Shown: positions 28,906 through 32,939 of the stretch, in pieces | Numbering within the stretch: position 1 is the stretch's first letter | Layout: each line of letters starts with the position of its first letter | Source of the DNA: Lysobacterales bacterium 63-13 | GTDB taxonomy: Bacteria > Pseudomonadota > Gammaproteobacteria > Xanthomonadales > Rhodanobacteraceae | DNA length: 64,000 nt | Direction of reading: 5' to 3' | NCBI GenBank assembly: GCA_001899855.1 | Contig: MKWR01000027.1 | Location: forward strand, 124,001 to 188,000 | Notes under the pieces: model-generated | The model's database searches: none | What the model saw: only the letters and a program-made list of their open reading frames with translations | Told to the model about the DNA's origin: nothing | Made by a program: the position numbers and the translations under genes

Positions 28906-29234
28906 ACAACCTGCGCCGGGATCGACAGCACGTTCGCGATGCAGCCATGCGCGCGATTGATGCACGCGGGCAGTTGCAGCGGCACACTTCCGGCCTGCGC
29001 GAGCTTTACGATCGCTACCGGCCGGCCATCCTTGTCGGTGGCGGTTTGCTTGCCGGCCTCGTCCTCGGGCGCAAGCAGTTCGTGCACGCTGCGCGATCGG
29101 CATTCACGATCGCCAGTCTCGGCATCGGCGTCGCGCGCTCCACGCTGGGTTCCGTGCTGCTCGCCACAACCCTGCACAAGGGGTCACCGACCGCCCGGCA
29201 CGCACGCCCTGCCGCGCGTGCCGATCAAGGCTGA
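28902..29234 (+). CDS. Small YqjK-like membrane protein
   Basis: A 110-residue protein that starts MNNLRRDRQHVRD with GGAGGAG upstream. It has a basic helical N-terminus, one membrane segment (RPAILVGGGLLAGLVLG) and a second weakly hydrophobic stretch. Sequence similarity to YqjK is weak; position after yqjD- and yqjE-like genes is the main support. Its stop overlaps the convergent GH44 gene by 10 bases. Confidence 0.65.
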   Translation: MNNLRRDRQHVRDAAMRAIDARGQLQRHTSGLRELYDRYRPAILVGGGLLAGLVLGRKQFVHAARSAFTIASLGIGVARSTLGSVLLATTLHKGSPTARHARPAARADQG

Positions 29235-30946
29235 TCGAAGCCGTCGGCAAAGATGCGATCGGAATCGGGCAGGATCAGCAGGCTTGCCGAACGCGGCGGG
29301 AGATTCGCCAGGCTGATGCTCGTGCCGTCGAGGGTTCCGGATGCGACAAGGGCGATGTCGCTGCTGCCGCTGAACTGGTAGAGCTGCCAGGGTCCGCTCA
29401 GGTGCGTGCCGAGATTCACCGCGGCCGTCGTTGCCGTGGTCGCCTTGTTGAACAGCAGCAGCATGACGTGCGCGCCCGGCTGGTGAATCGCATAGGCGCC
29501 AAGCGCATCGATGCTGGCGCTGCTTGCGCGCGTGCTGTGCCCGCTGACGTGCCCGCCGCTGCCATCGAAATCAAGATAGAGGCGAAATGCGCGCTCGACC
29601 GGGGACCCGGTCTCGGGCGCCACCCAGCGTGCCGCCATGTCGACGCCTTCGCGGGCAAAGATGGCCAGCGCTTCGGCCTGGGCCAGGGCGCTGCTCGCAC
29701 CGTTGTCCGCCCCCCAGTTGTACTCGCTGATCGACAAGCCGGTGCCTGGGCACGAAGCGTCGATCCAGGCACGCACGCGCGGAATCAGGTTTGGTCGGCT
29801 GTAGTGCCACGGCGCGCTGTTGCCGAGATCGGAAAGCCATGATTCCGAATCCCAGGCGGGATCATTGAGCTCCTTCAGCGAGCGCAGGCGGCGCGCCGAG
29901 ATGATCGCGGTTTCCGAGCCATTCGGCGGGTCGGAGAAATCCACCACGCCATCGCCTTGCGGGTAGTAGTGAAGATCAAGGTAGTCGACCAGACGCACGC
30001 CGTGCGCGGCCTGGTAGCTGCACACCTGTTGCAGGTACCACTGCACGAACGGAGTGCCGCCATGCGCGGCACGATCGTCTCCGTCGAGGCAATTGTCGGC
30101 TGCCGAACCGAACAAGTCGCAGTAACCCCAGGTCACCGGGCCGAGGATCTTTGCCGCCGGATCCTGCGCCTTGATCGCCGACGCGTAAGTCACCGTGCGC
30201 TGCCAGATCTCGTCGTAGGTCAACGGCGCAGGGTGCACATCGCGGTGCGTCGAGTTCCACAACATGGGCTCGTTGTCGAGCGCGTAGTAGCGCACCCCGC
30301 CGTTGGCCGCCGTGCCGAATCGTTGTTGCAGATGCGCCACCCAGTTGGCCTGGGTCTGCGCGGTCGAGATATCAGAGGTGTCGAGCGGATCGTTGCCGAC
30401 GATGTATCCCGCCGCGTTGCAGAATCCGGTCTGGTTCTGCGCCGGATTGCATCTCCCGTTGCCAGCATCAGCGGTGCACCAAGGGGGAGGCGGAGAAAAA
30501 TAGCTGCACTCGGTGACGAGCTGCGCGCCATACTTCACAACCGAGAAACCCCAGCGCTTCTGCTGCACCGGCTTGGGCATCCAGCCGATGGTGCTGAGGG
30601 TCAGCAAGGGTTGCGATCCTGCGGCGAGCGTCGACGCAACCAGGCCCTCCAGCGATGAGCCCGCCGGCGTGCCGTTGCCATCGGGAATATTCATGTAGAA
30701 CCAGTCAGCTGCCGTGTTGTGCACGTCTGCTTGCCAGTTGTATCGCGTCGTCGAATTGCCGCCGCGGCGGATCAAGGGATAGGCAAGATGCGAAAGATCC
30801 GGTGCACCGCTGACACCGAAGATCAGTGGATTGAGCGGGCGATGATCGGACTGCAGGTCGACCTGCACGGCAACCGTCGCCGCCTGGACAGGCATCGCAA
30901 CGGCAAGGGAAAGGACAAGCAAGGCACTCGCGACTTCGCTACGCAT
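29225..30946 (-). CDS. Secreted glycoside hydrolase family 44 enzyme
   Basis: A 573-residue protein with a signal peptide (MRSEVASALLVLSLAVAMPVQAA). The TIM-barrel catalytic region carries RRGGNSTTRYNW, the likely acid/base Glu in ALDNEPMLWNSTH and the likely nucleophile Glu in SISEYNWG, as in GH44 endoglucanases and xyloglucanases. A C-terminal beta-sandwich follows. The chain ends LILPDSDRIFADGFDQP, an unusual tail also echoed in the protein at 20.7 kb. It should attack beta-1,4-glucans outside the cell. Start MRSEVAS at 30946 has GGGGAG six bases upstream. Confidence 0.88.
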   Translation of the reverse strand: MRSEVASALLVLSLAVAMPVQAATVAVQVDLQSDHRPLNPLIFGVSGAPDLSHLAYPLIRRGGNSTTRYNWQADVHNTAADWFYMNIPDGNGTPAGSSLEGLVASTLAAGSQPLLTLSTIGWMPKPVQQKRWGFSVVKYGAQLVTECSYFSPPPPWCTADAGNGRCNPAQNQTGFCNAAGYIVGNDPLDTSDISTAQTQANWVAHLQQRFGTAANGGVRYYALDNEPMLWNSTHRDVHPAPLTYDEIWQRTVTYASAIKAQDPAAKILGPVTWGYCDLFGSAADNCLDGDDRAAHGGTPFVQWYLQQVCSYQAAHGVRLVDYLDLHYYPQGDGVVDFSDPPNGSETAIISARRLRSLKELNDPAWDSESWLSDLGNSAPWHYSRPNLIPRVRAWIDASCPGTGLSISEYNWGADNGASSALAQAEALAIFAREGVDMAARWVAPETGSPVERAFRLYLDFDGSGGHVSGHSTRASSASIDALGAYAIHQPGAHVMLLLFNKATTATTAAVNLGTHLSGPWQLYQFSGSSDIALVASGTLDGTSISLANLPPRSASLLILPDSDRIFADGFDQP

Positions 30947-31090
30947 GACGGACTCCCCTCGTGGCAACGCCGCCACGCTAGCAAGTTGTCATGCAGGGGG
31001 ATTGGCCGACGTTCACACTTTCGATGCAACCTGGCGTGAGCTTGTCGAGGCGGTGCTCCAGTGCCGGCTGCCGGGCCGGTCGGTTCACGC

Positions 31091-31254: not shown

Positions 31255-31280
31255 AGCCAGTTGCCAGCCGACAACTGGCT
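31255..31280 (-). terminator. Terminator of the metJ-H1 gene
   Basis: Perfect 9-bp stem AGCCAGTTG/CAACTGGCT with an 8-base loop, followed on the minus strand by TTTTC; it lies nine bases past the stop. Confidence 0.8.
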
Positions 31281-31288
31281 GCAACGCC

Positions 31289-31804
31289 TTACTTCTTCGC
31301 AGCTTTCTTTGCCGCTTTCTTGGCGGGTGCCTTCTTCGCAGCCGCTTTCTTGGCCGGAGCCTTCTTCATTGCGGTAGCAGCTTTCGCCCTTGCCGCTTTC
31401 TTTGCCGGAGCCTTCTTTGCAGCGGCCTTCTTGGCCGGAGCTTTCTTGGCCGGAGCCTTCTTCGCGGCCTTCTTGGCCGGAGCCTTCTTTGCCGCTACTT
31501 TCTTGGCAGCCTTCTTGGCGGCCGGTTTCTTCGCAGCGGGTTTCTTTGCAGCTGTTTTCTTTGTGGCCATATCGCGTCTTAACTCCTCGTCAGTTGGCAG
31601 TGGTTGCCCAGTAAAAGCGTGAAGAAATGCTTCGCACAGCAAATTGCTGTTGGTAGCGTGGCGCAGGTTGGCGACCTGGCGCCGGGTCCGTTCGTCGGAC
31701 AGAAGTCGAAGAATGTGCAGTGGAATCGATACCGTGATTTTTCTTACGGCCAATGATTTCAGACCGTGTTCGATATAGGGTTCGACGAATCTGGATGCAG
31801 CCAT
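31289..31804 (-). CDS. metJ: MetJ methionine repressor fused to a histone H1-like Lys/Ala-rich tail
   Basis: A 171-residue protein in one frame. Residues 1-77 are a MetJ ribbon-helix-helix repressor: the strand [25 protein letters not shown] and [16 protein letters not shown], which keeps the SAM-contact helix. The usual MetJ C-terminal 25-30 residues are missing. Instead residues 80-171 are almost only Ala, Lys and Pro (AAKK, APAKK units), as in bacterial histone H1-like proteins. An internal ATG (31570, [10 protein letters not shown]) with GAGGAG 12 bases upstream could also give the tail alone. The MetJ start has AAGGA close by. The core should bind met boxes with SAM; the tail would add nonspecific DNA binding. 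Confidence 0.85.
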
Positions 31805-31840: not shown

Positions 31841-31869
31841 AAATTATGCTTGTCAGATGCGCGTGTCAA
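31841..31869 (-). promoter_or_regulatory. Sigma-70 promoter of metJ-H1
   Basis: On the minus strand TTGACA (31864-31869), a 17-base spacer and TAATTT (31841-31846); CATAAT is an alternative -10 two bases upstream. It lies about 40 bases before the start codon. Confidence 0.65.
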
Positions 31870-31970: not shown

Positions 31971-31994
31971 GGACGTAAAGACGTCCATACGTCC
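31971..31994. promoter_or_regulatory. Three tandem met boxes (MetJ operator)
   Basis: Contiguous 8-mers GGACGTAA, AGACGTCC and ATACGTCC match the met-box consensus AGACGTCT at 5, 7 and 6 positions and keep exact 8-base register, as MetJ dimer arrays need. They lie about 165 bases upstream of the metJ start. A plus-strand TTGACT (31954-31959) is close by, so another promoter may overlap them. Confidence 0.65.
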
Positions 31995-32274: not shown

Positions 32275-32670
32275 TCAGTCGTCTTCGCTGTCTACGATTT
32301 CGGCATAGGCATCCGGATCGAGCATTTCCTCGAGCTCGTTTCGATCGGAAATCTTGACGACGAAAATCCAGCCGTCGCCGTAGGCATCTTCGTTGATCGT
32401 CTCGGGACGATCGGCCAGCGCTTCGTTGACCGCGACGATCTCGCCGCTCAACGGCGAATAGACGTCCGATGCCGCCTTGACCGATTCAACCACGGCGGCG
32501 GCGGTGCCGGCCTGCGCCATGTCGCCGACGTTCGGCAGCTCGACATAGACCAAATCGCCGAGCAGGCTCTGTGCGTGATCGGAGATGCCGATGGTGGCCG
32601 TACCGTTGTCTTCGACGCGCGCCCATTCATGGGATTTGAGAAACATCAGATCGCCGGGAATCTCTTTCAT
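32275..32670 (-). CDS. gcvH: Glycine cleavage system H protein
   Basis: A 131-residue protein starting [19 protein letters not shown]. The lipoylation site is Lys65 in [14 protein letters not shown]. It carries the aminomethyl group on lipoate between GcvP, GcvT and the lipoamide dehydrogenase. The ATG at 32670 matches the family N-terminus; there is no strong ribosome site. gcvT lies upstream on the same strand but 269 bases away, so gcvH may have its own promoter (TAGAAT at 32708-32713). Confidence 0.96.
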
Positions 32671-32939
32671 GTCTGCTGGCCTGGGATGGAGGATGACGTG
32701 TTGACGGATTCTAGCCCGGATTATTCGTGAAGGGCGCGGATGCTGGCGAGTCTTTTGGTGCGCTTCGCTGCCGTGTAGCGGGTCAAGGGTCGCCGGCGCC
32801 GTGCCGGCGAAGGATGCACCGGGATGAGCCGTCAGTGGCATGGGCATCCGGCAGCACGCCTGCGTGCAACGCATGCGAGGGCATTCTTCGCGACTTCATG
32901 GATGGGACGGATCAGCAGCCGGATTGGATCGCGGCGTGC
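32671..32939. other. gcvT-gcvH spacer
   Basis: 269 bases with no supported gene. A 7-bp hairpin CGCCGGC/GCCGGCG sits at 32791-32809, and TAGAAT on the minus strand (32708-32713) is a candidate -10 for gcvH. Confidence 0.4.

Follow-up and report, generated by a model that had tools for sequence, protein, structure and literature searches.

In the source genome a MetJ repressor core and a histone H1-like Lys/Ala/Pro tail are encoded by a single open reading frame, metJ-H1, and this MetJ-H1 fusion is real and family-wide. An internal start at the junction between the two parts is strongly supported by sequence comparison within the family and with related families, and it is probable, with some assurance, that this one gene specifies two nested products, the MetJ-H1 fusion and a free H1-like protein. 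The features discussed below lie in a 64,000 nucleotide stretch of DNA, referred to in its entirety as the window, and their positions are collected in Table 1.

Table 1. Positions in the window of metJ-H1, its parts and its neighbouring features
Feature	Position	Strand	Remarks
metJ-H1 ORF (fusion product)	31289..31804	(-)	171 aa; ATG start; profile matches
MetJ ribbon-helix-helix core	31571..31804	(-)	Residues 1-78; Pfam match residues 5-85
H1-like Lys/Ala/Pro product	31289..31570	(-)	93 aa from internal ATG 31570-31568
Segment of 45 nt frozen at synonymous sites in f1	31574..31618	(-)	The 15 final MetJ codons, followed by a spacer codon and the internal ATG
Box A, ACTGGGCA	31605..31612	(-)	Core recurs in f2 and f3, in the untranslated leader of the free H1-like gene
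Box B, ACTGACGAGGAG (internal Shine-Dalgarno region)	31583..31594	(-)	
Promoter-like pair	31841..31869	(-)	TTGACA 31869-31864, 17 nt, TAATTT 31846-31841
Three tandem met boxes	31971..31994		About 180 nt upstream of metJ start
gcvH ORF, conserved upstream neighbour	32275..32874	(-)	GcvH match residues 70-196
Terminator-like hairpin and T run, 3' of ORF	31256..31272	(-)	Weak: 4 such sites in region, 2.0 expected from shuffles

The reading frame occupies exactly the position at which an earlier note on this DNA had described a MetJ core continued in the same frame by a Lys/Ala/Pro tail, and it contains neither a stop nor a frameshift. Residues 5-85 match the Pfam profile PF01340 at 128.2 bits (cut-off 25), the core matches the NCBIfam model NF003622 at 133 bits (cut-off 110), and a PDB sequence search aligned it with solved Met repressor chains at 1e-32. 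A genome-wide profile search showed this to be the sole MetJ match in the source genome. The tail is H1-like in composition, although its matches to HC2 (23.4 bits) and to the Burkholderia H1-like model NF038053 (35.2 bits) fall short of the curated cut-offs of 40 and 80 respectively. The enterobacterial MetJ C-terminal region, beyond about residue 80, is absent from the fusion. The same note had described this region as replaced by the tail, which holds only relative to E. coli, since free-standing MetJs from other families of this order are likewise only 79-97 aa long; as the region is absent or different in these proteins too, it does not define a MetJ. A GH44-type glycoside hydrolase-like gene (window 29225-30976) adjoins metJ-H1, an arrangement seen elsewhere, among the loci searched, at two same-genus loci only.

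The distribution of the fusion was examined in a sample of 398 genomes of the order, 125 of which belong to the family of the source genome (f1). MetJ is present in 145 of the 398, comprising every f1 genome (125/125) and 20 genomes in families f8, f9 and f12; a wider search of f1 found it in 227 of 233 genomes. Three short MetJ frames that were checked (G408, G409 and G445) proved to be contig ends. The 125 f1 loci, including the source locus, were parsed and 124 have a readable end. In all 124 the MetJ part is followed by a K/A-rich tail of 41-310 aa, with K+R making up 29-47% and A 26-44% of the residues. Acidic residues (D+E, the spacer Asp being counted) number zero in 104 of these tails, one in 18 and two in 2. 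None of the 124 junctions is interrupted by a stop or a frameshift, the finding that had been named as refuting the fusion. Since the architecture is the same in every f1 locus with a readable end it represents more than chance. The free-standing MetJs of f8, f9 and f12 carry no K/A tail, and those of f12 (L159-L164) are only 79-82 aa long and end just past the D-E-E-L region, from which it seems that the core alone is a complete natural MetJ. The proposal that the same architecture be sought in other Xanthomonadales was thus borne out throughout f1 and in no other family of the sample, f8, f9 and f12 having MetJ without the tail and f2 and f3 having an H1-like gene without MetJ. We infer that f1 corresponds to the Rhodanobacteraceae and f2 to the Xanthomonadaceae from two reports: Leyn et al. 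(2014, PMC4239095), who in their account of four Xanthomonadales genomes report another regulator, SamR, and not MetJ, and a proteome of Rhodanobacter R12 that contains MetJ (PMC12146267).

The internal ATG, the upstream GAGGAG and the length of 93 residues for the predicted internal product, all noticed earlier, were confirmed, with 12 nt separating GAGGAG (31583-31588) from the ATG at 31570. Across f1 the MetJ part closes with RR (or KR), and a Met lies directly after this pair or one codon past it at 123 of 124 readable junctions; GAGGAG is found upstream of this Met in all 123. The intervening distance is 12 nt in 115 members and 9 nt in 8, indicating that one codon has been lost or gained beside the Met while the Met itself was kept. 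The last 15 MetJ codons before this point are nearly frozen at synonymous sites. The codon counts leave out L023, whose contig stops at the junction, and L121, which has a stop within MetJ. In the remaining loci these codons show 45 synonymous changes in total on the tree, or 3.0 per codon, whereas 46 core codons average 16.4, and none of 100000 degeneracy-matched resamples reached a value as low as 3.0. The frozen codons are in part rare ones: AGA is used in 117/117 cases where the residue is Arg, GGG in 122/123 and ACT in 123/123. Among 30 other MetJs examined this codon wording was found only in L032, a MAG locus from an unnamed phylum, together with the same fusion start. A 30-mer of the frozen segment, with up to 3 mismatches permitted, is present in 124/125 f1 genomes and in 0/273 others.

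Pairing with the anti-Shine-Dalgarno sequence is stronger at the internal start than at the main start in all 122 members compared (L023, L121 and L105 being left out), with medians of -11.5 and -5.7 kcal/mol respectively; the corresponding values at the source locus are -8.4 and -3.5 kcal/mol. When the ends were randomised synonymously the median was -5.5 rather than -11.5 kcal/mol, and about 3.6% of these controls pair as strongly as the median internal site. Twenty loci fetched later served solely as a held-out check. One of these ends at the junction; the 19 that are readable all have the Met, and 11-15 of their 15 frozen codons match. The frozen 45 nt are longer than a ribosome-binding site needs and may therefore be, or contain, something else. 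Folding of three segments revealed no unusual RNA structure in the frozen stretch (z of +0.88 and +1.01 at the source locus and -0.26 in L032), and no Rfam family was found near metJ-H1, the sole match at the gathering threshold in the 64-kb window being a tRNA elsewhere.

Further evidence for the internal start came from families in which the H1-like gene stands free. No MetJ match was found in 128 f2 genomes or in 3 f3 genomes. A search with the tail as protein in 26 genomes recovered the source locus alone and missed a same-genus relative known to carry the tail; since protein searches fail on the biased composition of the tail, gcvH synteny and DNA patterns were used instead. The upstream neighbours of metJ-H1 are gcvH and gcvT, and gcvH lies upstream on the same strand at 113/125 f1 loci; at the other 12 it was not found in the stretch of sequence covered. 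Twenty-four f2 genomes were searched by way of gcvH. An H1-like K/A-rich ORF was found at 20 of these loci, and in the remaining four genomes (G288, G258, G345 and G341) it is present in longer stretches; most of these ORFs begin MATKKAAKK, MAMKKAAKK or similar. In f3 a free H1-like ORF with a matching leader was found at 2/2 gcvH loci. The f2 leaders consist, in order, of box A, a variable stretch, box B as CACTGACGAGGAG or a near form, 6-10 bases (a gap that the 12 nt of most f1 members exceeds) and ATGGC. The CTGGG of box A is present in 18 of 19 leaders compared, and box B deviates in three of the 19 (L227, L235 and L246). In both f3 loci ACTGGGCAACACACACAACCACTAACGAGGAGCTAAGAC directly precedes the H1 start, and the third f3 genome, G024, gave a match to a looser pattern with CGAGGAGCTAAGAC. 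AGAC, with the rare Arg codon that is frozen in f1, is also present in these leaders. The exact leader pattern, ACTGAYGAGGAGN{3,15}ATGGC, occurs in 114/125 f1 genomes, 111/128 f2 genomes (being missing in 17) and 1/145 other genomes. Since the same leader, untranslated, stands before the free H1-like gene near gcvH in f2 and f3, the internal ATG appears to be the H1 gene's own start, and the most fitting interpretation is that the free gene and the H1-like part of the fusion are one and the same gene.

Beyond f1 and f2 the exact pattern was matched only in G077 (f8), where a dehydrogenase-like gene follows; this was taken as chance, as was a looser match in G004 (f5), which precedes a long protein without a K/A tail. 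At one locus of f4 (L293) a K/A-rich ORF also lies close to gcvH, but its leader is unrelated. At f2 loci L226-L248 box A is often preceded by CGGGTCCGACTCCCG, a hairpin-like sequence rich in G+C. A tRNA-like arm was considered upstream of the f2 H1 genes and discarded, no tRNA being found in 19 loci; no credible Rfam match was obtained upstream of these genes in 10 of the 24 f2 loci. A likeness of CUGAYGA to the hammerhead core was dropped as the other parts of the core are missing.

The suggestion in the earlier note that two products come from one gene therefore has strong comparative support, in the form of a frozen internal Shine-Dalgarno sequence, a conserved Met and a matching leader on free H1-like genes, and both proteins are probably made. 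Translation from the upstream start would give a SAM-dependent MetJ repressor with a long, positive and presumably disordered H1-like C-terminal tail. Its MetJ part would locate met boxes before methionine and sulphur genes, while the tail, by analogy with tail fragments of AlgP, probably adds sequence-independent DNA binding that may strengthen or spread repression. The tail may also, as that note proposed, increase affinity for DNA, compact the DNA at met operators or connect methionine control with chromosome structure. Translation from the internal ATG, using its own Shine-Dalgarno sequence written in the last MetJ codons, would yield the H1-like protein alone, and this free product would coat the nucleoid. 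The fusion would also repress its own gene.

Two natural variants bear on these possibilities. In G238 (L105/L305) the internal Met and GAGGAG have been lost, GTC GTG and otherwise ordinary codons standing in their place, and the fused tail is kept in frame; the free product is thus not indispensable in this genome. In G390 (L121/L306) an in-frame TGA, either genuine or a sequencing error, lies inside the MetJ core, and the H1-like part and its start are intact, so that the fusion is not always intact. It could be argued that only the fusion is made and that the frozen 45 nt have another role, for example as a promoter within the gene, as an RNA element or as a site where ribosomes pause ahead of the tail. 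Box A, at 35-42 nt upstream of the ATG, is indeed too distant to serve as a Shine-Dalgarno sequence, the rare codons AGA-CGA could slow ribosomes and in G238 the fusion has persisted by itself. We nevertheless regard this explanation as unlikely: a strong Shine-Dalgarno sequence and ATG in the frozen block survive the gain or loss of a codon beside the ATG, the free H1-like genes of f2 and f3 start at a matching ATG behind a matching leader, and neither the three folded segments nor the Rfam search near the gene gave any sign of an RNA element. Slightly less probable still is that two independent genes share a frame by accident, translation from the internal start supplying the H1-like protein and the fusion being a functionless by-product. 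The internal Shine-Dalgarno sequence does out-pair the main one in every member compared, the H1-like gene exists without MetJ in f2 and f3, and G390 combines a stop in MetJ with an intact tail; against this, the junction is open in 124 loci, although a stop at the spacer codon would spare the H1-like product, and G238 keeps its tail in frame without an internal start. That the fusion is an artefact of assembly or sequencing, or a peculiarity of one genome, can be dismissed, for although the contigs of some draft genomes stop in or near the tail, the same structure is present in one-contig genomes such as G031 and G224, and its conservation at 124 of 124 readable loci across the family already refutes this.

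How the two genes came together can be addressed only tentatively. One possible order of events, which we put forward without placing it above even likelihood, is that metJ and the H1-like gene were fused in the common ancestor of these families, the H1 leader then arising from the codons at the end of MetJ (T-G-Q ... T-D-E-E-L-R). Family f1 would have kept the fusion, running two DNA-binding proteins from it and so making the amount of a nucleoid protein depend on the SAM level, and the others would have lost MetJ and kept its codons as an untranslated leader. Alternatively, metJ may have been captured in f1 onto an older H1 leader. We lean slightly towards fusion having come first, as this explains why an untranslated leader should spell T-G-Q and T-[DN]-E-E-L codons as in tail-less MetJs. 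The strict T-G-Q ... T-[DN]-E-E codon pattern fits 7/21 leaders (19 from f2 and 2 from f3) and 1/42000 shuffles, a fit that counts as one observation and not 21 because the leaders are related. Against an early fusion, one or two losses of MetJ are needed, and boxes A and B are 2 nt farther apart in f3 than in f1, which places them out of frame with each other. A GcvH tree (69 rows, 130 columns) was too short to resolve f1, f2, f3 and f4. If fusion did come first, the leader of f2 and f3 would be a relic of protein-coding sequence that has taken on a control function.

Each part of the fusion resembles known proteins. Its core is identical to Buttiauxella MetJ at 55 of 77 aligned residues and shares with E. 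coli-type MetJ the ribbon-helix-helix core, the DNA-contact and co-repressor positions and tandem met boxes before methionine genes; it differs from this type in having an H1-like tail and an internal start, in being without the enterobacterial C-terminal region and in its predicted targets cysJ and cysG. Free H1-like proteins (Hc2, NF038053 and the f2/f3 ORF) have a similar Lys/Ala/Pro composition with few acidic residues, and the f2/f3 ORF also shares the gcvH neighbour and the matching leader, but in the fusion the gene is nested in frame behind metJ. Free-standing proteins of this kind are known from Xanthomonas campestris, for which three histone H1 entries are given in a listing within PMC8578834. 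AlgP of Pseudomonas aeruginosa (and PhaF) similarly joins a separate N-terminal domain to an H1-like KPAA tail in one chain, and AlgP tail fragments bind DNA; in passages of PMC9239181 on AlgP, by contrast, the N-terminal domain is putatively alpha-helical and is not described as a specific repressor, and a nested start is not mentioned. Internal in-frame starts of the Cas11b type also give two products from one frame (PMC11899642), whereas in the present case related families have the inner product as a gene of its own, and its leader is written in the codons of the outer gene. No description of a MetJ-H1 fusion was found by title or abstract in the open-access literature searched. The combination of a metabolite-sensing specific repressor with a general DNA-coating tail offers a natural test of how target search and repression respond to such tails. 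Should the inner product be made, a single gene in f1 would tie the sensing of methionine/SAM to how much of a histone-like protein is present. The natural variants, in which the fusion has an internal start, the fusion lacks one or H1 stands alone, provide material for studying a ribosome-binding leader and a coding end held in the same bases.

The MetJ part looks functional. Residues K23 and T25, which we take to be DNA contacts, and E59, F65 and L70, which we take to line the co-repressor pocket, are each present in 124/124 f1 members including the source locus (L121 being left out of the residue table and of the met-box counts). At position 42 (E. coli numbering) Arg is replaced by His in 25 and by Tyr in 15 of the 124, and Cys58 is Val in 97; altered handling of the co-repressor is a possible consequence of these changes. 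The best met-box sites of the source genome lie before a metX-like gene, an aspartokinase, cysJ, cysG and metJ-H1 itself. The metX-like gene has three met boxes and scores 274 bits with the MetX model (cut-off 296). The aspartokinase, of which only the first 388 aa fall in the sequence examined, is best matched by the model for bifunctional aspartate kinase/homoserine dehydrogenase (AK-HSD), and its site lies about 330 bp upstream within the preceding ORF. The sites before cysG and cysJ (L042, L049; G000 contig 29) are strong tandem met boxes and suggest that MetJ also controls sulphate assimilation in the source genome. Genome-wide, sites with up to 3 mismatches numbered 9 compared with 8 for a reversed-pattern control, and 32 compared with 214 in a second scan; as these counts do not rise above the control, the argument for MetJ targets depends on a handful of the best sites, together with the genes they precede.

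Upstream of metJ itself, a three-box score of at least 15 was obtained in 86/124 f1 members and in 5/372 shuffled sequences, and 85 of the 86 scoring sites sit 150-200 nt before the metJ ATG. The score is below 15 in 38/124, including 18 of the 19 members of genus g8 examined (1/19 scoring at least 15), so that autoregulation is not universal. TTGACA occurs within 110 nt upstream of metJ at 124/124 f1 loci and is followed by a TA[AG][CT]TT-like sequence in an alignment of 27 of them; a consensus promoter scan reported no promoter at the TTGACA/TAATTT pair, the second hexamer of which is weak. At the source locus some 100 bp separate the end of the met boxes from the TTGACA downstream of them, an unexpected position for a repressor to act from. 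In Rhodanobacter R12 with nitrate, MetJ is reported to be up and four Met enzymes down (PMC12146267).
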